DNA from: Methanomicrobiaceae archaeon
GTDB taxonomy: Archaea; Halobacteriota; Methanomicrobia; Methanomicrobiales; Methanomicrobiaceae
Length of the DNA: 64,000 bases
Assembly: GCA_029762625.1 (NCBI GenBank)
Contig: JARVGI010000002.1
Span: 64,772 to 128,771, forward strand
Reading direction: 5' to 3'
Each line of letters begins with the position of its first letter. Positions within the stretch are counted from its first letter, which is position 1. Below the pieces are notes generated by a model. It had not been told where the DNA came from. It worked only from the letters and a program-made list of their open reading frames with translations, and did not search any database. The position numbers and the translations under genes are program-made. Shown here piece by piece: positions 5,261-23,103 of this stretch.

Positions 5261-7288
5261 ATGGATTATTTACTCTATCTTGCACCAGTCTGTGCCCTTG
5301 TGGGCCTTCTCTTTGCCGGATACCAGTTCCTGAATATCCGAAAAGAGGGCGAAGGCACGGAATTGATACAAAAGATCACCGCTGCGATCCACACCGGTGC
5401 GATGGTCTACTTAAATCGCCAGTACCGGGCCATCGCCGTCTTCGTTGTGGCGCTGGCCATCATTATCGCACTTATTCTGCCCAACGGCGCGCTCACCGCA
5501 GGATGTTTCGTCATCGGTGCGGTACTCTCCGCCACGGCAGGGTACATCGGGATGTTCACCGCAACGAGCGCGAACGGGCGGACTGCAAATGCCGCCCGGC
5601 GCGGCATTGCGGATGCCTTCAAGGTGTCGTTTGCGAGCGGTACGGTGATGGGCATGTCCGTCGTCGGCCTCGGGCTCTTCGGGCTCTCCGTCTGTTTCAT
5701 CGCCCTCGGCTTCATCCTGCCGGAAATGGCGGAGGCGACCCTCGTCAACATCCTTGCAGGGTTCTCGCTGGGTGCGAGTTCTATCGCCCTCTTCGCCCGT
5801 GTCGGCGGCGGTATTTTCACCAAGGCAGCTGACGTGGGCGCCGATCTCGTGGGAAAGGTCGAAGCCGGCATTCCCGAGGACGACCCCCGCAACCCCGCCG
5901 TGATCGCCGACAACGTGGGCGACAACGTTGGCGATATCGCCGGCATGGGTGCCGACCTCTACGAGAGCTACGTCGGCTCCATCCTTGCCACCATGCTCCT
6001 CGGCGCGGCGACCGGTGCTCTGCATCCCGATATTCCGGTGGCCAGCTTCATCGCCTTTCCGCTGATCCTTGCAGCGCTGGGAATCATCGCCTCCATCGTT
6101 GGTACGTTCTTTGTCCGCACCAGCAAGACCGAGAGCAGCGCCATCCACAGCGCCTTCAACCGGGGCCTGCTCATTGCCCTCGCCCTCGTGGTGGTCATCA
6201 CCTACGTCGCCTCCGATTTCCTCCTGGGAGACTTCGGGTTCGGCGTCTTCGTAGCCACCGTCGGCGGTCTGATCGCCGGGTTCCTCATCGGGCAGATCAC
6301 CGAGTTCTATACATCGTTCGAGCGCTCCCCCACCCTCGCCATCGCTAAGTCCTGTGAGACCGGTGCCGCCACCAACATCATCACCGGCTTTGCCAAGGGC
6401 ATGGAGTCCACGATCTTTCCCGTGATCATCATCTCCATCGCCATCTACCTTGCCTACACCTTTGCAGGCCTCTACGGCATCGCCCTCGCCGCGGTGGGCA
6501 TGCTTGCCACGCTCGGTATCTCCCTTGCCGTGGACGCCTACGGCCCGGTGGCGGACAATGCCGGCGGCATCGCCGAAATGTCCCACCAGCCCCCGGAGGT
6601 ACGCAAGATTACCGATACGCTCGATGCGGTCGGCAACACCACCGCGGCCATCGGCAAGGGATTCGCCATCGGGTCCGCGGCGCTCACCGCGCTCGCGCTC
6701 TTCTCCTCCTACGCCATCGCGGTGAACCTTACCGAGATCAGCGTCCTCGAAACCCCCGTCTTTATCGGGGTGCTCATCGGGGCGATGCTGCCCTTCCTCT
6801 TCTCCTCCATGACCATGCTGGCGGTCGGCAAAGCGGCCTACCAGATTGTTCTCGAGGTCCGCCGCCAGTTCAAGGAGATTGCAGGCCTGATGGAGGGCAC
6901 CGCCGAACCCGACTATGAGACCTGCATCGCCATCTCCACCACGTCCGCGCTGCGGGAAATGATCCTCCCGGGGCTGCTCGCCATCGCCGCCCCGGTGATC
7001 GTGGGCCTGGTCCTCGGCCCCGGCGCATTGGGCGGCCTTCTCGTCGGATCGCTTGCCGCGGGATTCATGCTGGCCATCACCATGGCCAATGCGGGTGGTG
7101 CCTGGGACAACGCCAAGAAATTCATCGAGCAGGGCAATCTGGGCGGCAAGGGCTCCGATGCCCACAAGGCTGCGGTGACCGGCGACACGGTCGGCGACCC
7201 CTTCAAGGACACCTCCGGCCCCGCCATCAACATCCTGCTCAAGCTGATGTCCATTGTGGCAGTGGTCTTCGCTCCCCTGTTCCTCTAA
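5261..7288 (+). CDS. hppA: Membrane-bound ion-translocating pyrophosphatase
   Basis: 675 aa, about 16 membrane helices; couples pyrophosphate hydrolysis to H+ and/or Na+ export. The catalytic loops are present: [20 protein letters not shown] and [26 protein letters not shown] has Ala where K+-independent enzymes have Lys, so this belongs to the K+-dependent subfamily. DLYESY carries the Glu typical of Na+-pumping or Na+-regulated members; ion choice cannot be settled from sequence. GGAGG precedes ATG 5261, and AT-rich promoter-like sequence lies ~60-90 bp upstream. Monocistronic, followed by oligo-T. Confidence 0.96.
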
Positions 7289-10881: not shown

Positions 10882-11577
10882 TCATTCGGTCCGGCGATTT
10901 CCGGGCAGCGCAGGGACGCAGACGCTTGCCGCCGTCTCGATCAGCCCGGCAAGAAGCCCCGCCACCCTCCTGCCCACCGCAGTCAGGGTATAGAAGTCCC
11001 TCCGCTCGGCGATGAGGCCCATGGTAACAAGGGAAGCGAGATCATGCTCCTTTACGGCCTCCGTCCCACCGTAGAGCCGGCGGTATGCGCGTTCGGAGCG
11101 CTGCCCCTGCTGCAGGAAGAGGAGGAAGAGCAGCACACCCTCGTTGCCGATTAAAAAGCGGACGTCGCTGCGGTTGTCCTCGTAGACCTCGAGCGGGGTT
11201 ATCGATTCGGGAAGATCTTCCTCCACCGCAGCAACCCGCCGTTCGTCCTCCTCCAGCATATCGCCGAGAATCTCCTCCTGGTTCATCAGCCCGACCGCAG
11301 CGACAAACCGGATCAGGCTGTCGGTGACCTCCCTGCCACATGCCGTCAGGTGGTAGCCTCCGCTCCCCCGGGCGATGATCCCGTCCTGCACGCACCGGCG
11401 GATGTAGGGGAGCACCGAGAGGGAAATGGTGTCGGCGATATCCCATATCCTGGGCAGCGGTTTTTCGCCCTCGTGCAGAGAGAGCAGGATCATCAGGCAG
11501 GCGTGCGAAAAATAGTGCGACTGGAATGTGGAGCGGTTGTTCTGGTAGAGCTCTGTAGCACTGATCGCACCGGTCAT
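10882..11577 (-). CDS. Duplicated winged-helix protein, putative regulator
   Basis: 231 aa built from two similar ~100-residue halves. Each begins with a Tyr-x-x-Asn-Arg-Ser element (YQNNRS near residue 11, YEDNRS near 133). Each then has a helix-rich segment, a strand-wing ending in Leu-Thr-Ala (GYHLTACGREV / FYTLTAVGRRV) and a closing helix. This looks like two tandem winged-helix domains in one chain, i.e. a built-in dimer that could bind DNA. A TATA-like box ~28 bp upstream of ATG 11577 suggests a leaderless transcript. No family name recognised. Confidence 0.7.
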   Translation of the reverse strand: MTGAISATELYQNNRSTFQSHYFSHACLMILLSLHEGEKPLPRIWDIADTISLSVLPYIRRCVQDGIIARGSGGYHLTACGREVTDSLIRFVAAVGLMNQEEILGDMLEEDERRVAAVEEDLPESITPLEVYEDNRSDVRFLIGNEGVLLFLLFLQQGQRSERAYRRLYGGTEAVKEHDLASLVTMGLIAERRDFYTLTAVGRRVAGLLAGLIETAASVCVPALPGNRRTE

Positions 11578-15789: not shown

Positions 15790-15953
15790 TGTTGTATCAT
15801 GTAGGGTGGAGCGTTTCATAGCAATAAAGATTGATATGTGAAGTTAACCCGCAGAACACCTCCGGCGCACAGGAAGCGGCATGATGCCAGATCGCCTTCA
15901 AAAAAAACAATCATAAAGGTTTTTTTTCTCACGTTACTCTCTCTGCATCTTTT

Positions 15954-15975
15954 TTGCAGTAGAAATCAAGGGGTC
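15954..15975 (+). repeat. ORB-like element A (degenerate)
   Basis: GCAGTAGAAATCAAGGGGTC matches the 16.2 kb element at CAGT-GAAAT-AAGGGGT with a few mismatches. The dyad half is weak, the A-rich spacer and G string are present. Confidence 0.4.
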
Positions 15976-16224
15976 ATGGCGCTCCTGCACATCGCGGCGG
16001 AGCGAAGCCCTGTACTCCAATTACCACGCATCTTCGCCTTACCACGGAGAAATGTTCGCTTTTAAAGGATATGCATAGGATATACATTATTGGGAATCCC
16101 GGCCCGCGGTGGAGCATTCGTACCGCTCTTCTGGGAACGTCTCACGAGCGGATCGCCAGACGGGCTTTGTGTATGGTAGTGACAGCAACGTGGGTCGGTC
16201 TATCGAAACCTCGCGCTTTTCCGA

Positions 16225-16251
16225 CATCTCCAGTGGAAATAAAGGGGTTCG
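16225..16251 (+). repeat. ORB-like element B
   Basis: TCCAGTGGAAATAAAGGGGT shows the dyad TCCAGTGGA, an A-rich spacer and a G string, the layout of archaeal origin recognition boxes bound by Orc1/Cdc6. It is nearly identical to the element 78 bp upstream of orc1. Confidence 0.7.
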
Positions 16252-16334
16252 CCCGGCCTTTTGCATGACCGAGGGGAATACGCGCACAATCGAACAATGG
16301 TCCGGAAATATAAAATTATATGTCTGATTGTATT

Positions 16335-16350
16335 AAAAAATGATAAAAAA
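16335..16350 (-). terminator. Oligo-T terminator of the orc1 operon
   Basis: On the minus strand two T6 runs occur 8 and 18 bases after the aminotransferase stop, an archaeal-type terminator for the orc1-Lrp-aminotransferase transcript. Confidence 0.6.
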
Positions 16351-16358
16351 TAATGCCC

Positions 16359-17516
16359 TCACAGTCCGGTCAGGAACGCCTCCATGCGATCGAGGCCAAC
16401 CCGCAGGTTCTCGCGGGATACCGCATAGGCGCACCGAAGGTAGCCCCCGGCGGAGGTTCCGAACGCCCGTCCCGGTACCACCGCGACCCCCTGTTCGGTC
16501 AGCAGGCGCTCGGCAAATTCGAGATCGGAAAGACCGGTTTCCGCAACCGAGGGGAAGGCGTAGAACGCCCCTTTGGGCATATGACAGGGAAGACCGATGC
16601 GGTTTAAGCCACGGACGAACAAGTTCCGGCGGATGCAGTACTCCCGCACCATAGCATCGCGTTCCCTGCTGCCGCGCCGGAGCGCCTCGATCGCCGCCAC
16701 CTGGGCCATCGCGGGAGCGCACATCATGACATACTGGTGGATCTTCATCGCCGCGTCGCAGATTTCCTTCGGCGCGCAGAGGAACCCGATCCGCCACCCG
16801 GTCATGGCATAGGCCTTGGAAAACCCGTTGAGCGTGATGGTCCGCTCCCGCAGGTCGTCCACCGTCACCGCAGACGTATGGGAGCCCTCGTAGGTGAGCT
16901 CCGCGTAGATCTCGTCGCTGATCAGCAGCAGGTCGTGGTCCACGATGACCTCGGCGATCGCCCGGTAGTCCGCATCCCGCATCACCCCGCCCGTGGGGTT
17001 GTTGGGGAAATTGATCACCACGGCCTTGGTCTTCGGGGTGACCGCCTCCGAGAGAGCATCCGCGGTCAGCCTGAACTCGTCCTCCCCGCGGCACTGCACC
17101 GGCACCGGGGTCCCGCCGGCGAGCATCACGCAGGGCGAGTAGGCCACAAACGAGGGTTCGGCGACGATCACCTCGTCCCCGGGATCGACGACCGTCCTGA
17201 TGGCGACGTCGAATGCTTCCGAGACCCCGCTGGTCACCATGATCTCCGTCTCGGGGCTGTACAGGATGGAAAAGCGGTCGTCGAGATAGCGGGCGATCTC
17301 CCGGCAGAGTGCGGGCATCCCCCGGTTGGCGGTATACGACGTCGAACCCTGCTCGATGGAATAGATCGCCGCCTCACAGATGTTCCACGGGGTGGCGAAA
17401 TCGGGCTCTCCCACCCCGAGGGAGACGATATCTTCTCTGTCCTGGACCAGGTCGAAAAATTTCCTGATCCCGGAGGGGGGAATGGCCCGGGCCTGCGCGG
17501 CGACGAAATCTCTCAT
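16359..17516 (-). CDS. Class I/II PLP-dependent aminotransferase
   Basis: 385 aa fold-type I aminotransferase. DIVSLGVGEPDFATPWNI at the N-terminus, INFPNNPTGGVM, LLISDEIYAELTYEG, the PLP-binding Lys in LNGFSKAYAMTGWRIGF, and the carboxylate-binding Arg in LRCAYAVSRENL. Probably acts on aspartate or another amino acid; substrate cannot be read from the sequence. It starts 9 bp after the Lrp-type regulator and ends the orc1 operon. PLP made by PdxST nearby is its cofactor. Confidence 0.92.
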   Translation of the reverse strand: MRDFVAAQARAIPPSGIRKFFDLVQDREDIVSLGVGEPDFATPWNICEAAIYSIEQGSTSYTANRGMPALCREIARYLDDRFSILYSPETEIMVTSGVSEAFDVAIRTVVDPGDEVIVAEPSFVAYSPCVMLAGGTPVPVQCRGEDEFRLTADALSEAVTPKTKAVVINFPNNPTGGVMRDADYRAIAEVIVDHDLLLISDEIYAELTYEGSHTSAVTVDDLRERTITLNGFSKAYAMTGWRIGFLCAPKEICDAAMKIHQYVMMCAPAMAQVAAIEALRRGSRERDAMVREYCIRRNLFVRGLNRIGLPCHMPKGAFYAFPSVAETGLSDLEFAERLLTEQGVAVVPGRAFGTSAGGYLRCAYAVSRENLRVGLDRMEAFLTGL

Positions 17517-17525
17517 GGTATCACA

Positions 17526-18023
17526 TCAAAGGGAGATAGGAAGGCGGTCGCCTCCTCCCCGCTCGAAAAACGTATGCCCGTTTTCCTTGTAGGTCTTCAT
17601 GATGAGGATCGTCGCCGTTTCCCGGATATGGTCCATGGGGGCGATCTGCTCGGCCACAAACGAGGTGATCTCGTGGATGTTTCTGCCCACGACCATCACC
17701 TGGAGATCGTACACGCCGGAGATGAGGCGGAGGCTGCGCACCTGTGAAAACCGCGCAATGCGCTCGGCGATTTTGTCGTACCCGAAATCGCGTTCGGGGC
17801 TGACCTTCAGCTCGATGATCGCCGCGACCTCGGGCTCTCCGGCCTTCTCCCAGTCCACCATGGCCCGGTACTTGCGGATCACCCCCTGCTCTTCCAGAAT
17901 GCGGATCCGCGCGGCGACCTCCTCTTCGGAGAGATCGGCCATTTCAGCCAGGTTGCGTACCGGGAGGTTGCTGTCGTCCTCGAGTATTGTGAGCAGTATC
18001 CGGTCTTTCTCGTCCATTGCCAT
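17526..18023 (-). CDS. Lrp/AsnC family transcriptional regulator
   Basis: 165 aa: N-terminal helix-turn-helix (MDEKDRILLTILEDDSNLP, LAEMADLSEEEVAARIRILE) followed by the RAM/ACT-like effector domain (AAIIELKVSPERDFGYDKIA, GVYDLQVMVVGRNIHEITSF). Such proteins sense amino acids, which suits the aminotransferase immediately downstream. ATG 18023 overlaps the orc1 stop (TGATG); another ATG lies two codons later. Confidence 0.93.
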   Translation of the reverse strand: MAMDEKDRILLTILEDDSNLPVRNLAEMADLSEEEVAARIRILEEQGVIRKYRAMVDWEKAGEPEVAAIIELKVSPERDFGYDKIAERIARFSQVRSLRLISGVYDLQVMVVGRNIHEITSFVAEQIAPMDHIRETATILIMKTYKENGHTFFERGGGDRLPISL

Positions 18024-19306
18024 CACCTGAATAACGTTTTAAATCGAGCCGTATCGATTTCATTCAATCGTTCGTCATTGAGCCGGGTGTCCTTGAGGAG
18101 GGTGTCCCAGATCTTTTTGGTCCCGGTGCCGAACGACATCTCCTTGGTCCTGCCGTAACGGCCCCTGCTCACCACGCGCGCGTTGATCACGCCGAGCATG
18201 TTCAGCTCGGAGATGAGATCGGTGATGCGGCGGTGGGTGAGCACGTCGAGGTCCAGGATCCGTGCCACTTCGCGGTAGACCTGCGCGACCTCCCCCGTCG
18301 TGAAGACGTCCTTGTTGAGCTTGGTCAGAAAGAGCATCGAATAGAGGACCGCTTTGCTCTGTGTCGGGAGGGTGGAGACGCACTCGATGAGACTGTCGGT
18401 CTCGATCCGCTGCATCGCCGCCCTCACATTGGTCTCGGCGACCCGGTCCGTGTTCTCCCGCTCCGCAAGCTCCCCCGAGACGCGGAGGAGATCAAGCGCC
18501 CTGCGCGCGTCCCCGTGCTCCTGCGCGGCGAGGGCTGCACAGAGGGGGATGACCCCGTCATCCAGTGCTCCCTCGACAAACGCCACGTCGGCCCTCTGCT
18601 GGAGAATGTCCACGAGCTGCATCGCGTTGTACGGCGGAAAGACAATCTCCTCTTCGGAGAGCGAGGAGAGCACCCGCGGGTCGAGGAAATCGGTGAACCG
18701 GAGATCGTTGGAGATCCCGATGATGCTCACCTTCGAATCCTTCAGGTCGGAGTTGATGCGGGTAAGGTTGTAGAGCGTCTCGTCACCGCTCTTTTTCACC
18801 AGCTTGTCGATCTCGTCGAGGACAATGACATGCACCCCGCCCATCGCCTCCATCTGGTTTTTGAGCTCGGCATACACCTGGTCGGTGGGCCACCCGGTCA
18901 TGGGGATGCTGGTCCGGGGGCGATCGCTCGCACGGGCATCGGAATCATCAAGATAGTTGGCGATCTGGGCGAGCACCCGGTACTGGGTATCGATCACCTC
19001 GCAGTTGAGGTGGATGACATGGGAGGGAGTACCCATTTCATTGCTGGCATTCTCCAGTTCGCGTCCCACGTACCGCACGCAGGCGGTCTTTCCAGTCCCC
19101 GTTTTCCCGTAGATAAGAATATTGGAGGGCGTCTCATCCCGGAGGGACGGTGCGAGGATCGAAGCGATGGAATCGATCTGCGGCTTTCGGTGGGGAAGCA
19201 CATTCGGGCGGTAGGAATGGCGGAGCACTTCCCGGTTTTTGAATATGCTCGTATTATGGAGGAACTTTTTAAACAATCCCATTGAGGGGCTTTCTTCATT
19301 GGACAT
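18023..19306 (-). CDS. orc1: Orc1/Cdc6 replication initiator
   Basis: 427 aa AAA+ ATPase that marks and opens archaeal replication origins by binding ORB repeats. Walker A ILIYGKTGTGKTACVRYVG, Walker B VIVLDEIDKLV, sensor 1 SIIGISNDLRF, arginine-finger/initiator region FTDFLDPRVLSSLSEEEIVF, sensor 2 GDARRALDLLRVSGELAE. A C-terminal winged helix follows (TGEVAQVYREVARILDLDVL, HRRITDLISELNMLGVI). ATG 19306 has GGAG five bases upstream. First gene of an overlapping operon with the Lrp-type regulator and aminotransferase. ORB-like repeats lie just upstream. Confidence 0.96.
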   Translation of the reverse strand: MSNEESPSMGLFKKFLHNTSIFKNREVLRHSYRPNVLPHRKPQIDSIASILAPSLRDETPSNILIYGKTGTGKTACVRYVGRELENASNEMGTPSHVIHLNCEVIDTQYRVLAQIANYLDDSDARASDRPRTSIPMTGWPTDQVYAELKNQMEAMGGVHVIVLDEIDKLVKKSGDETLYNLTRINSDLKDSKVSIIGISNDLRFTDFLDPRVLSSLSEEEIVFPPYNAMQLVDILQQRADVAFVEGALDDGVIPLCAALAAQEHGDARRALDLLRVSGELAERENTDRVAETNVRAAMQRIETDSLIECVSTLPTQSKAVLYSMLFLTKLNKDVFTTGEVAQVYREVARILDLDVLTHRRITDLISELNMLGVINARVVSRGRYGRTKEMSFGTGTKKIWDTLLKDTRLNDERLNEIDTARFKTLFR

Positions 19307-19383
19307 ATCTACTCCAGAGCGCACGTGGAAAGCACGGTACCACCAATGCACGATCCAGTATATGTGATCATCTGAATCCTATT

Positions 19384-19407
19384 AACCCCTTTGTTTCCAG
19401 TGGAGCC
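19384..19407 (-). repeat. ORB-like element C
   Basis: On the minus strand CTCCACTGGAAACAAAGGGG: dyad TCCACTGGA, A-rich spacer and G4. Closest match in the window to the archaeal ORB pattern; 78 bp upstream of the orc1 start. Confidence 0.75.
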
Positions 19408-19502
19408 GGCCCGTGCAGAAGAAAACCTGCTACCTCGATAGACACGGGATTTGAAGCACTCATCGGGGAATTATCGACTCTACTGGAGGGGTGGTGAAGG
19501 CC

Positions 19503-19526
19503 CACCCCATCATTTCAAGTGGAGAG
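19503..19526 (-). repeat. ORB-like element D (degenerate)
   Basis: On the minus strand CTCCACTTGAAATGATGGGG keeps CTCCACT-GAAAT and the G string with mismatches. Same orientation as element C. Confidence 0.5.
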
Positions 19527-19530
19527 ATAT

Positions 19531-19553
19531 GATGAGAAGACCTTCTTCTCATC
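19531..19553. repeat. Perfect inverted repeat inside the putative origin
   Basis: Arms GATGAGAAGA and TCTTCTCATC with a CCT loop. Located between the left- and right-facing ORB-like elements; could be an additional protein site or unwinding landmark. Confidence 0.6.
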
Positions 19554-19705
19554 AATATCAAAACAGGAGAAGACTCATTGATCAGTCTCTCGTTCATGGT
19601 ACTTAAGGGATCCGAATCGCGATCAGATCCCGCGGGGGGCTCGCGGTAGGGGGAAGGCAAGAGGTTTGGCTTCTGCCATGATGCGAGGCGGTCATGCGCT
19701 CGACT

Positions 19706-19729
19706 GGCTCCACTGGAAATGAAAGGGTC
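19706..19729 (+). repeat. ORB-like element E
   Basis: CTCCACTGGAAATGAAAGGG in the plus orientation, inverted relative to elements C and D and ~30 bp before the moaB promoter. Confidence 0.7.
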
Positions 19730-19738
19730 TCCCTCTCC

Positions 19739-19747
19739 GTATAAACC
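19739..19747 (+). promoter_or_regulatory. TATA-like box for moaB
   Basis: CGTATAAAC lies ~55 bp before the moaB ATG, leaving room for a leader with the GAGG ribosome binding site. Confidence 0.4.
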
Positions 19748-19798
19748 AATCCCCGGACCAACCACTATCCTCATCAGATCTCCCGCCAATGAGGATGC

Positions 19799-20287
19799 AT
19801 GGATCCGAGCCATATCAGGGATATTCCCCTCGCTGTCGCAGTAATCACGGTCTCCACGAGCCGTGATACATCCACTGACAGGAGCGGTCCGGTTATCAGG
19901 GATCTTCTCTCCTCCGCGTCCATCCCGGTGGTGCGGTCCCGCATCGTTCCCGACGAGATCGAGGAGATTCGTCGTGAGCTCTTCGCCTCGCTCGAAGTTG
20001 CCAACTGCGTGATCTTTTCGGGGGGGACAGGTCTCACCCCCGACGACTGCACCATCGAGGCAGTCGAGCCCCTCCTCGAAAAAATCATGCCGGGATTCGG
20101 CGAACTCTTTCGTTCGCTCAGCGTCAGGGATATCGGCACCCGTGCGATGCTCTCCCGCGCCCTTGGCGGAGTGACCCGGGGCAAAGCGGTCTTCTGCATC
20201 CCGGGATCGACCGGGGCCGCGGACCTTGCTGTCCGGGAACTGATCATCCCGCAGCTTGCCCACATCCTGACCCACGCATCGCACTAA
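19799..20287 (+). CDS. moaB: Molybdenum cofactor biosynthesis protein MoaB/MogA family
   Basis: 162 aa MPT-binding domain that adenylylates molybdopterin during molybdenum/tungsten cofactor synthesis. VAVITVSTSRDTSTDRSGPV, VIFSGGTGLTPDDCTIEAVE and FCIPGSTGAADLAVREL are the family signatures. GAGG lies 6 bases before ATG. Methanogens need this cofactor for formylmethanofuran dehydrogenase and formate dehydrogenase. Its promoter abuts the putative origin. Confidence 0.93.
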   Translation: MDPSHIRDIPLAVAVITVSTSRDTSTDRSGPVIRDLLSSASIPVVRSRIVPDEIEEIRRELFASLEVANCVIFSGGTGLTPDDCTIEAVEPLLEKIMPGFGELFRSLSVRDIGTRAMLSRALGGVTRGKAVFCIPGSTGAADLAVRELIIPQLAHILTHASH

Positions 20288-20291
20288 CGGG

Positions 20292-20804
20292 TCAGCGGTA
20301 GACGTCGAGGAGGGCGACCCGCTCCCGGACCAGTTCGGGAAGACGTCCCTCCCCGACGGTCGCCAGTTCCTCGCGGGAAATCCCGAAAAGATCCATCAAG
20401 CGACGTTTTTTTGCATCATCCAGGTCTTCCCAGTCTTCCTCGACGAAACGGAGAAGGCCACGGAGGGCGTCGCGTGCGCCGGGCGAAGGCGGGCAGATGC
20501 AGACGTACCCCGCGTTGTCACCGCTGTGAATGCCGAACCGCACGGCGTCCAGCACCTGCCTGCTCCCCGCGGCATAGAGCAGGGATTCCATCTCAAATGA
20601 ATTTGCAATCGGGCTTTCTTCGAAAAAGGAACGCTGTGCATGATCGAGGGCGGCGGTGACATGAGCGTTTCCGGCCATATGCGCGGCATTGAACACCACG
20701 ATCCGCACCCCGAAGCGGTCGGCGATCTCCCGTATGTGCGCGAGGAAATCGGCTTCGTCATCCACCGAAAACCGGGCCTGTGCGATATCGCAGTCCACCT
20801 TCAT
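20292..20804 (-). CDS. KEOPS complex subunit Cgi121
   Basis: 170 aa. IVVFNAAHMAGNAHVTAALD, the aromatic helix AQRSFFEESPIANSFEMESL and LYAAGSRQVLDAVRFGIHSG match the Cgi121 pattern (conserved hydrophobic helix plus YASGxRQI). KEOPS makes the tRNA t6A modification together with Kae1, Bud32 and Pcc1; Cgi121 binds the tRNA CCA end. ATG 20804 has GGTGA five bases upstream; a GTG at 20813 overlapping the hel308 stop is the alternative. C-terminal ~60 residues extend beyond the core. Confidence 0.82.
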   Translation of the reverse strand: MKVDCDIAQARFSVDDEADFLAHIREIADRFGVRIVVFNAAHMAGNAHVTAALDHAQRSFFEESPIANSFEMESLLYAAGSRQVLDAVRFGIHSGDNAGYVCICPPSPGARDALRGLLRFVEEDWEDLDDAKKRRLMDLFGISREELATVGEGRLPELVRERVALLDVYR

Positions 20805-20809
20805 CTCCG

Positions 20810-22957
20810 TCACCCGAAAAAAGACAGGGTCTTCTGCCCTACATCCTCGTATTCGTCATCCTCGTCCCCGCCATCCGGCCTGCCGAGCTGCTCGAAGATC
20901 GATTCCGCGGTCTTCTGGCCCAAAATCGTGCTGATGCGCTCCATGCCGGCAGCGCGAAGCGCCTCGGGGGAGGTGATGTTGTTGTTGAAGAGCCGGCGGG
21001 CGCGCACCCGCCCGATCCCCCGCAGGCGGATGAGGGGCAACAGCTCCCGCTTGATCCCGTGCTTGACCCGCAGATCGGTCTCCCCGATGGGACCGGCACA
21101 TGCCGGCGCTGCCATGCCGGCAATCCTGCCCGCGGCGTGGATCAGCCACCCGATGCCCTCGACCGTATTGTAGATGTCCCCGGGGCCTACGTTGTAGCGC
21201 TCGCAGAGTGCGGCTTCGCCGACCTCCCCCATCCAGTCGGCGATGAGCATCGCCGTCTTCAAACTGCGGAAGTAGCTCTCGCCGTCGTCCCACGAAAATT
21301 CCACCCAGAGGTCGTCCTCGTGGGCTTCGACGAACTGCTCCAAGACGGCCAGGTCCTGTTTTCGCACGTAGAGGGTGTACATGTCGGGGGTGGCGCACAG
21401 CAGCTGGAGCAGGCCAATTTCGGACCAGTGCTCGTGGGACCGCAAAGCGTCGCTGATCATCTCTGCCCCGCGGGGATCGATGTAGAGGCGGGAGACAAGG
21501 GTGCCGTAGGACGTGGCGTGCAGCAGTCCGCCCACATCGGTGATCATCTCGGCGCCGTTGAGGAACGCGGTTACGGATTCGACGATCCTCGAGAGATGGC
21601 GGTTGTTCTTTTTCTGGTGCACGTAGAATGTCTTTTCCAGAAACCCGATCAGGTCCTCGCTCGACGAGACGAACCCGGTGGCGATCAGGGAGAGAATGTG
21701 GGTGGTGAGCGCCGATTCCGAGGCGCACTTCGACTGGATCCCCTCCGCCGGCGCCTCGATATACGCGGCGAACAGGTCGTCGACCGCCCCGCGTTCCTTT
21801 GCGATGAGCACCGCTTCGCCGTAGGGGTCAAGGCGAGGCCTTCCTGCGCGGCCCGCCATCTGCCGGTACTCTCTCACCGGGATGGGCCGCATGCCCTCTC
21901 CGGCCTGGAAGCGGAGATGGTCGCGCACCACCACCCGTCGGGCGGGGAGGTTGAGGCCTGCTGCCAGGGTGGGCGTGGAGGAGATCACCTTGATCCGGTT
22001 CTTCCTGAATCCCCGCTCGACGATATGGCGCTGCTTTTTCGAGAGTCCGGCATGGTGAAACGCCGCCCCTTTCGCCACGCAGGCAGCGAGCACCTTGCCC
22101 ATCTCCGTTTCGGCCGCCGCTTCGAGCTCTCGGCCCAGCGCATCGAGCGCCGGGTCGTCAATGGCCAATGCCGACGCCGCGCGTTTGGCAAACCCCTCCG
22201 CGTTCTTGCGGGAGCTGACGAAGACCAGGCATTGTCCACCTTCGGCGATGGTATCCAGGCAGAGGTTGATGTCCTCGTATCTGGAGGGGGTGGCGATTGC
22301 CTTCTCGCCGTCGGCGAAGTGCACGGTATCCCGGTAGCAGACCCCTTCGCGCAGGTCGACGGGGCGCCATTCCGAGGTGATCAGTTCCGCATCCAGCCAT
22401 GCGGCGAGCTCTTCGGGGTTGCCGATGGTGGCGGAGAGGGCGACTATCTGCATGGCGGGATTGAGGGTGCGCAGTTTGGTAATCACCATCTCGAGGGTCG
22501 CCCCCCGGTCCTCGGAATCGATCAGGTGCACCTCGTCGACCACGAGCAGGGAGATCTCCCGCAGCCAGTGGGTCGCATTGCGCAGCAGGGAATCCACCTT
22601 TTCGCTGGTGGCAATGATGATGTCGTTTCGTCCCAGGTACTCGTCCCGTCGGTCGTAGTCGCCGGTGGCGATCCCCACCGACGCCTGCTTGCCGTCAAAC
22701 TCGCCGTATTTTTCGCTGGCGAGCGCTTTCAAGGGGACGATGTAGAGGCACCGCCCCCCGCCGGTGATGTGGTGGTGCATGGCCATCTCGGCGACGAGGG
22801 TCTTGCCGCTCGCCGTGGGGATGGCGATGAGAAGGTTGGCCCCCGAAAAAAGCCCCGCCCCGATGCACTCCTCCTGCGGGGGGTAGAGGTCGGTGATCCC
22901 CCGTTCTCGGTACTGCTGCACCAGGTGGGCCGGTACCGGCAAAGATTCGATTTTCAT
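20810..22957 (-). CDS. hel308: ATP-dependent DNA helicase Hel308
   Basis: 715 aa Ski2-like 3'-5' helicase acting at stalled forks. Q motif YPPQEECIGAG, motif I AIPTASGKTLVAEMA, motif II LLVVDEVHLID, motif III VALSATIGNPEEL, motif IV-V region ISSTPTLAAGLNLPARRVVV, motif VI REYRQMAGRAGRPRLDPYGE. A ratchet domain and a C-terminal helix-hairpin-helix (LIRLRGIGRVRARRLFNN) follow. ATG 22957 gives the usual KIESLPVP start. It is followed without gap by the cgi121 gene. A TATA-like element lies near 23080-23095. Confidence 0.96.
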   Translation of the reverse strand: MKIESLPVPAHLVQQYRERGITDLYPPQEECIGAGLFSGANLLIAIPTASGKTLVAEMAMHHHITGGGRCLYIVPLKALASEKYGEFDGKQASVGIATGDYDRRDEYLGRNDIIIATSEKVDSLLRNATHWLREISLLVVDEVHLIDSEDRGATLEMVITKLRTLNPAMQIVALSATIGNPEELAAWLDAELITSEWRPVDLREGVCYRDTVHFADGEKAIATPSRYEDINLCLDTIAEGGQCLVFVSSRKNAEGFAKRAASALAIDDPALDALGRELEAAAETEMGKVLAACVAKGAAFHHAGLSKKQRHIVERGFRKNRIKVISSTPTLAAGLNLPARRVVVRDHLRFQAGEGMRPIPVREYRQMAGRAGRPRLDPYGEAVLIAKERGAVDDLFAAYIEAPAEGIQSKCASESALTTHILSLIATGFVSSSEDLIGFLEKTFYVHQKKNNRHLSRIVESVTAFLNGAEMITDVGGLLHATSYGTLVSRLYIDPRGAEMISDALRSHEHWSEIGLLQLLCATPDMYTLYVRKQDLAVLEQFVEAHEDDLWVEFSWDDGESYFRSLKTAMLIADWMGEVGEAALCERYNVGPGDIYNTVEGIGWLIHAAGRIAGMAAPACAGPIGETDLRVKHGIKRELLPLIRLRGIGRVRARRLFNNNITSPEALRAAGMERISTILGQKTAESIFEQLGRPDGGDEDDEYEDVGQKTLSFFG

Positions 22958-23103
22958 CCAAACCCCGTTGATTCCACTGCACAATGCGGTTTCATCGCGC
23001 GCATTTGAAAACTGCGCTCACAGATCTCTTACGTCCTCCAGTTGCAACGCTCCCGTAGCCGGAATGGCGTTATGCGGGATTATATTGCGTTATACACCGG
23101 CAG

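Follow-up and report, generated by a model that had tools for sequence, protein, structure and literature searches.

We examined a 64,000-nucleotide stretch of the genome of a Methanomicrobiaceae archaeon (hereafter the window, contig C21:64772-128771 of a 2.2-Mb genome in 28 contigs), in which a gene for the replication initiator Orc1/Cdc6 and a moaB-like gene are separated by a gap at positions 19307-19798. This gap, predicted here to be a chromosomal replication origin, holds three origin recognition boxes (ORBs), a core between two of them, and further elements within that core. The features concerned, with positions in the window, are as follows.

18023-19306, minus strand: orc1/cdc6 initiator gene, with its ATG at 19306 (the mechanical open reading frame begins at a GTG at 19351)
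19379-19385, minus strand: TATA-like box TTAATAG of the putative orc1 promoter, so called from its position and conservation
19385-19404, minus strand: ORB1, beside orc1; TCCACTGGAAACAAAGGGGT, 0 mismatches to the Methanomicrobia ORB motif
19504-19523, minus strand: ORB2; TCCACTTGAAATGATGGGGT, 0 mismatches to that motif
19524-19708, no strand: core between the inward-facing ORB2 and ORB3, the probable unwinding region, with a local AT peak at 19525-19584
19530-19554, minus strand: hairpin (inverted repeat), arms 19530-19540 and 19544-19554 in a perfect 11-bp stem with loop AGG, 6 bp inside ORB2
19600-19607, minus strand: TATA-like element CTTAAGTA, 84 bp inside ORB2 and invariant in three congeners
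19709-19728, plus strand: ORB3, in the opposite orientation; TCCACTGGAAATGAAAGGGT, 1 mismatch to the motif
19799-20287, plus strand: gene resembling moaB and divergent from orc1; its matches to Pfam MoCF_biosynth and NCBIfam TIGR00177 exceed the cut-offs

Three ORB-like elements had been claimed for this gap in a preliminary description of the DNA, and all three are present, with 0, 0 and 1 mismatches to the Methanomicrobia motif as printed in Ori-Finder 2 (PMC4164010), which was used for scoring. The dyad ascribed to them is found in two; the middle element has TCCACTTGA, and the third, ORB3, terminates in AAAGGGT. ORB2 is retained in three congeners with 0-2 mismatches. Within the window, six matches occur at up to three mismatches where 0.07 are expected (100 shuffles), and the whole genome holds 11 such sites against 0 for a reversed control pattern. 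Six of the 11 fall within 7 kb around orc1 (window 15955 to 22981), so that the genome-wide scan proposed earlier as a check returns sites that are not randomly placed. A looser pattern finds 60 sites in 14 complete relatives, and 47 of these are no more than 10 kb from orc1 (a tally that counts one site across the start of a circular record), with 12 in total for the reversed pattern; among the matches listed for 25 further genomes (of 44 searched; G053, with a split orc1, and G027 were left out), 117 of 140 sites fall inside the same 10-kb limit. Two of the complete relatives depart from this, G036 having no looser-pattern match and G041 none near orc1; each carries two weaker ORBs (2-3 mismatches) upstream of the gene. 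A first loose pattern, allowed up to three mismatches, failed to outperform its control (50 versus 73), and only its best sites are meaningful.

The gene that these clade motifs adjoin encodes an initiator of the Orc1-1 type. Its product (scanned as open reading frame 18023-19351) scores 594 bits against NCBIfam NF001625, above the cut-off of 501, and matches the Pfam domains Cdc6_C and Cdc6_lid; the nearest solved structures by sequence are 2qby_A, which is Cdc6 homolog 1, at 358 bits and 2v1u_A at 337 bits, both of which we take to have been determined with DNA. Proteins 97-98% identical to this Orc1 occur in metagenome-assembled genomes labelled Euryarchaeota archaeon or Methanoculleus sp.

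The arrangement of the boxes recurs widely. Relatives typically show the series ORB(-), core, ORB(+), ORB(+), orc1, some genomes lacking the full set, and 94 of 108 genomes have a '+' ORB at a distance of 120-420 bp ahead of the orc1 match. The polarity of a distal '-' and a proximal '+' ORB extends, at up to four mismatches, to 11 of 20 outgroup genomes of other families (20 examined of 82), two of which have the haloarchaeal ORB motif. Inward-facing dyads around a hairpin-containing core, also part of the preliminary description, are borne out by the polarity of ORB2 and ORB3 and by the perfect 11-bp stem; the core, described there as moderately AT-rich, has an enrichment that is only modest (47% over 185 bp versus 39% for the window, the best 60 bp reaching 65%). 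In 12 of 19 sequences, the six 60-bp windows richest in AT include one located between -318 and -159 relative to orc1, a range fixed after inspection; in the window under study the AT peak lies inside ORB2, and the nearer of the peaks in G004 falls on the side of the ORB that faces orc1.

Strand composition in some relatives points to the same place. In G014, a complete family member, the sign of GC skew agrees with an origin at orc1 in 19 of 20 coarse samples, and nine finer samples place the main change at 2,253-2,267 kb, close to orc1 (2,271 kb), two of them (2,239 kb and 2,313 kb) having small values of the wrong sign; the opposite change lies near 1.17 Mb. In G003 the sign flips between 2,130 and 2,250 kb, a range that includes orc1 (2,193 kb), and the other arm is mixed. 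The skew inflection that had been named as a check is seen at orc1 in G014 and roughly so in G003, with no clear signal in contig C21 or in G055. The ORB motif and its clustering, the family of the adjacent Orc1, the layout, the AT peak of the core, the skew of G014 and G003, the coupling of ORB1 to a TATA-like box, the downstream ORBs and the hairpin statistics together argue that the gap at 19307-19798 is the chromosomal, oriC1-like replication origin of a Methanoculleus-like member of the Methanomicrobiales, a prediction to which we assign a probability of roughly 0.87. The layout itself is a known design. Orc1 from the adjacent gene would bind ORB1 to ORB3, and ORB2 and ORB3, with their facing dyads, would flank the site of MCM loading and duplex opening, as expected from known origins; MCM loading between opposing ORBs is described in a review (PMC6742236), and in the plasmid-assay dissection of Haloarcula hispanica oriC1, as given in PMC3936714, the minimal origin is an AT-rich region between two inverted ORBs.

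ORB1 appears to be fused to the promoter of the initiator gene. Its G-string runs into the orc1 TATA-like box, and such a box directly follows ORB1 in 74 of 84 genomes and the distal '+' ORB, taken as a control, in 4 of 94, the pattern having been written once examples had been viewed. This abutment implies autoregulation: Orc1 on ORB1 would cover the orc1 promoter and, judging from position, most likely repress the gene.

Immediately inside ORB2, the hairpin has a z of -3.7 in the window (81-nt piece). The core block is conserved among congeners, and in G001 the repeat is altered on both arms, TGATGAGAAGA/TCTTCTCATCA becoming ATATGAGAAGA/TCTTCTCATAT (three congeners compared). For a wider survey, the 45 bp inside the distal '+' ORB was folded as single-stranded DNA, scored as z against dinucleotide shuffles and averaged by genus, in 94 of 108 genomes (the remaining 14 are those without a '+' ORB at -420 to -120). 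The mean z over 21 genera is -1.58 and 12 of the 21 fall below -1.5, as against 0, 0 and 1 of 21 in the next three 45-bp steps and 0 of 21 on the far side of the ORB (12/21 versus 1/84, Fisher p 1.8e-9 with genera treated as independent). Among genera unviewed when the idea arose, 7 of 13 are below -1.5 (g13, g15, g17, g18, g20, g28 and g30; not g4, g14, g16, g19, g21 and g32). The signal is near 0 in g3, g4, g8, g14, g16 and g21, intermediate in g2, g19 and g32, and confined to this box, since the segment inside the '-' ORB qualifies in 2 of 21 genera, that inside ORB1 in 0 of 17, and either side of a downstream ORB in 0 of 9. Stems such as TGATGAGAAGA (g1), GAAAACAGG (g11), GATACACC (g12), ATGAACTTCACG (g13) and AATCTATC (g17) show no relation from one genus to another, and are similar inside g1, g11 and g12. 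Beyond the order, z is -2.2 to -4.0 at 4 of 12 ORBs (three in family f8, one in f14), but several control segments are low as well, to -3.3, which makes these cases weaker evidence; perhaps some other families of the phylum likewise have an origin hairpin.

Covariation in genus g12 (27 of 31 sequences, four near-identical ones omitted) gives a mixed result: cells changed on both sides number 13 against 7.5 +/- 2.0 (3 of 500 shuffles as high) and the covariation score is equalled in 6 of 500, but both-side changed pairs, pair types and cells paired do not exceed shuffles (340, 447 and 52 of 500), and the covariation term of RNAalifold on this alignment is only -0.34. An alignment for g11 (9 of 11 sequences) was made and is not counted as evidence. 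Deeper in the core, 14 of 28 groups have their best orc1-ward TATA-like octamer between -86 and -76 relative to ORB2, as against 5.3 +/- 2.0 in 200 shuffles (largest 11) and 2 on the reverse strand, the interval having been chosen post hoc with the sequences already in view. This element may be a promoter or a motif of the unwinding region. De-novo motif search in the core returned weak pieces (log-likelihood 71.4 versus 48.0-51.5 in four shuffled sets at width 16), with best sites at -48 to -56 in 10 of 28 groups, and is not used as evidence.

The preliminary finding did not include two further ORBs, which lie on the other side of orc1, beyond two intervening genes.

15955-15974, plus strand: second, weaker downstream ORB; 3 mismatches, conserved with its flanks in both congeners
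16229-16248, plus strand: downstream ORB; 0 mismatches, 3.06 kb from the orc1 ATG and 110 bp past the end of the aminotransferase reading frame
16359-17516, minus strand: open reading frame of a putative aminotransferase-like gene, named from its sequence; the downstream ORB follows its 3' end
17526-18026, minus strand: Lrp/AsnC-type regulator gene, one of the two that separate orc1 from the downstream ORBs; NCBIfam matches all below equivalog cut-offs

Both boxes sit between the aminotransferase-like gene and a gene that we take to be purA-like from its sequence, and congeners retain both together with their flanks. An inverted ORB is found 3.0-4.1 kb downstream of the orc1 match start in 12 of 14 complete relatives, nine of them at 3.04-3.29 kb, and within 5 kb in 20 of the 25 further genomes (among the matches listed). 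Where measured, it lies some 75-320 bp past the end of the aminotransferase match, and this spacing persists where purA has moved away (G008, G013 and G054); the order orc1-Lrp-aminotransferase is retained in all 19 sequences compared. Several g12 genomes have an inward-facing downstream pair, with the '-' box near 3.06 kb and the '+' box near 3.28 kb (G035, G040, G045, G055 and UBA206). No downstream ORBs were detected in G036 and G041 (both complete, family f5), in four g14 genomes or in G006, where the contig is short, and among the 20 outgroups scattered weaker matches occur in seven, none of them in a fixed position. The inverted ORBs some 3 kb downstream would most likely, in analogy to Haloarcula oriC2D, sequester surplus Orc1 and thereby limit re-initiation. 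Such titration is the likely and favoured role because downstream ORBs are known both in haloarchaea, where they restrain oriC2, and in Methanomassiliicoccales. As reported in PMC3936714, an 11-ORB region restrains oriC2 and two ORBs have an intermediate effect; haloarchaeal downstream ORBs are also covered in PMC3528665 and in the review PMC4010727.

Several observations weigh against placing the origin in the gap beside orc1. Five of the 11 genomic ORB sites are distant from the gene, including a 0-mismatch site on contig C11; ORB3 is partly eroded in G001; and in the stretch examined around orc1 five of the 20 outgroup genomes have no ORB and one has only a 4-mismatch ORB. Sampled stretches of contig C21 itself and of G055 give no clear skew, so that the skew evidence is that of relatives, and skew at four-fold sites split by strand gives nothing clear. 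The genome also encodes two distant Orc1/Cdc6 paralogs, on contigs C25 (28% identity) and C26 (26% identity), and a second origin with other boxes is possible. The strongest AT tract near orc1 flanks the downstream ORB rather than the core (0.80 at +2953); at 16306-16355, it is the most AT-rich tract in the surrounding 15 kb. T-rich and placed immediately past the aminotransferase-like gene, it may be a terminator. The tract also speaks for the principal competitor of titration, namely a bipartite origin with Orc1 on both clusters and orc1-Lrp-aminotransferase in a loop, like bipartite bacterial origins, or else the purA-aminotransferase gap (15820-16358) as the opening site itself. Two inverted ORBs in that gap at near-constant distance, AT blocks conserved among congeners and, in g12, a downstream pair facing inward like a small origin would all suit such an arrangement. 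Yet the two downstream ORBs of the window point in the same direction and do not flank the AT tract, the AT peak of G055 (2946) is outside its facing pair, and the two complete f5 genomes and four g14 genomes keep the upstream ORBs without downstream ones; Haloarcula oriC2D, moreover, had no origin activity on its own in the account of PMC3936714. We consider this arrangement quite improbable. Still more remote is the notion that the ORBs are only Orc1 operators by which orc1, and perhaps moaB, is autoregulated, replication starting elsewhere or independently of origins. The close abutment of ORB1 on the orc1 TATA-like box and the proximity of ORB3 to a likely moaB TATA (19740-19747) agree with it, as does the reported replication of Thermococcus kodakarensis independently of Cdc6 and origin (PMC5663688). 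An operator, however, has no need of ORB2 and of an inverted ORB3 beyond an AT-rich core; the skew changes at orc1 in G014 and G003, and inverted ORBs around an AT-rich region are what the dissection of Haloarcula hispanica oriC1 left as minimal (PMC3936714).

Several interpretations of the hairpin were weighed. It could be the operator of a dimeric regulator whose sequence drifts with its protein, with a possible third, direct copy about 33 bp away, and we regard this as a real possibility to which we would give somewhat less than even odds. That stems resemble one another inside g1, g11 and g12 and show no kinship across genera is as this predicts, and 33 is the best lag for a direct copy in g1, g11, g15 and g32; on the other hand, the direct repeat is weak (mean z 0.88 at lag 33, 5 of 21 genera above 1.5, and 0.75 at lag 28), and the g12 half-sites GATAC/GTATC are spaced 4 to 11 bp apart, unusual for a fixed dimer. 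A role tied to moaB alone was considered and found unlikely. In at least one genome of 11 of the 12 genera with z below -1.5, moaB lies upstream (the exception is g5), but its distance is variable, and genera with moaB include some in which z is not below -1.5, namely g14 (2/4), g16 (3/4), g21 (2/2) and g32 (1/1). Alternatively, the hairpin might form in a short RNA made inside the origin, with the TATA-like element at -84, a start near -57 and the hairpin at -31 to -7 relative to ORB2. The near-fixed distance of the TATA-like element, so much more frequent than in shuffles, favours this, although the interval was picked after the data had been viewed. Strand asymmetry, which an RNA should impose, lends it no support: 73 stems contain 12 G-U and 9 A-C cells, the mean energy difference is -0.14 kcal/mol, and the orc1-ward strand is favoured in 10 of 24 groups. 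We judge an origin RNA unlikely. The lack of a G-U excess or strand preference favours a role at the level of DNA, where the hairpin would most likely be an element beside the unwinding region that tunes opening, either through recognition by a partner protein or through cruciform extrusion. In its full form, that most Methanomicrobiales genera examined have, as a third class of origin element next to ORBs and unwinding region, an ORB2 hairpin selected for shape, with a TATA-like element about 82 bp off, and that opening depends on extrusion or on a structure-reading protein, this proposal is tentative and, we think, rather unlikely to hold in every part.

Some further observations concern ORBs and initiators elsewhere. 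A weak ORB-like site with 3 mismatches is found on the minus strand at 22962-22981, in the hel308 leader; counterparts lie at the hel308 start in G001, G003, G014, G030 and G039, and four g12 genomes have '+' ORB sites at -3.8 to -5.0 kb. On contig C11 a tandem ORB pair (317670-317759; local 5671-5690 and 5741-5760), with no orc1 match nearby, sits between convergent genes that we take to be PPDK-like and acyl-CoA synthetase-like, and contig G002:C24 holds a pair identical to it in both sequences; a titration site or a remnant origin is possible. Contig C26 has a single ORB (1 mismatch, local 11024-11043) about 4 kb from its distant Orc1/Cdc6 paralog (local 5872-6996). In families f13, f17, f20 and f22, Orc1 matches start only at query residue 81-132 and sit in open frames of about 500-700 codons, perhaps owing to an insertion such as an intein. 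The first 10 kb of contig C21 has a GC of 0.43, as against about 0.60 in its other stretches, and is probably an acquired island.

The opening of archaeal origins and the limits on re-initiation are known mainly from Sulfolobus and haloarchaea. The ORB2 hairpin and the downstream ORBs may control the timing with which copying starts, and the hairpin, the ORB fused to the orc1 promoter and the fixed inverted ORB downstream provide testable handles in methanogens; the turnover of hairpin sequence from genus to genus is in itself unusual. Among the open-licence papers listed, judged by their titles and the opening of their abstracts, none describes a hairpin inside ORB2 or ORBs some 3 kb downstream in Methanomicrobiales.

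Compared with known systems, the locus shares individual features with several. The Helicobacter pylori origin belongs to a bacterial DnaA system, and the unwinding site here is, by contrast, probably upstream of orc1. Its two parts are said to flank dnaA. Its likeness to the present locus is that of a bipartite origin built of initiator boxes (PMC6742236). Sulfolobus oriC1, in the treatment of PMC12141716, has an AT-rich core flanked by ORB2 and ORB3 in inverted orientation, and the core contains an extra essential element; that element, ucm, is a sequence motif bound by UBP, whereas the hairpin here keeps structure and not sequence. In Methanomassiliicoccales (Ca. M. alvus) ORBs are listed both upstream and downstream of orc1/cdc6.1; this is a different taxonomic order, the tabulated distances are shorter, and the passages of PMC4153887 on this origin mention no hairpin. 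Further parallels are offered by Haloarcula hispanica. At its oriC1 an extra inverted repeat, there an enhancer, lies directly inside the ORBs, but it is G-rich, with one half inside each of two ORBs (PMC3936714). That arrangement was not found here; the element of the present locus is a single compact hairpin of mixed composition, inside ORB2 only, and its sequence differs by genus. In two outgroups with the haloarchaeal ORB motif, the segment inside the '+' ORB showed no such compact structure (z 0.5 and 0.3). At oriC2 and oriC2D, too, ORBs lie beyond the initiator gene, and a two-ORB construct gave an intermediate plasmid level, although the 11 ORBs directly follow cdc6E (PMC3936714). Here only two ORBs (up to four in G028) are found, after two further genes and about 3 kb from the orc1 start, which sets them apart from an oriC2D-type titrating cluster; by analogy, they may nevertheless work in the same way.
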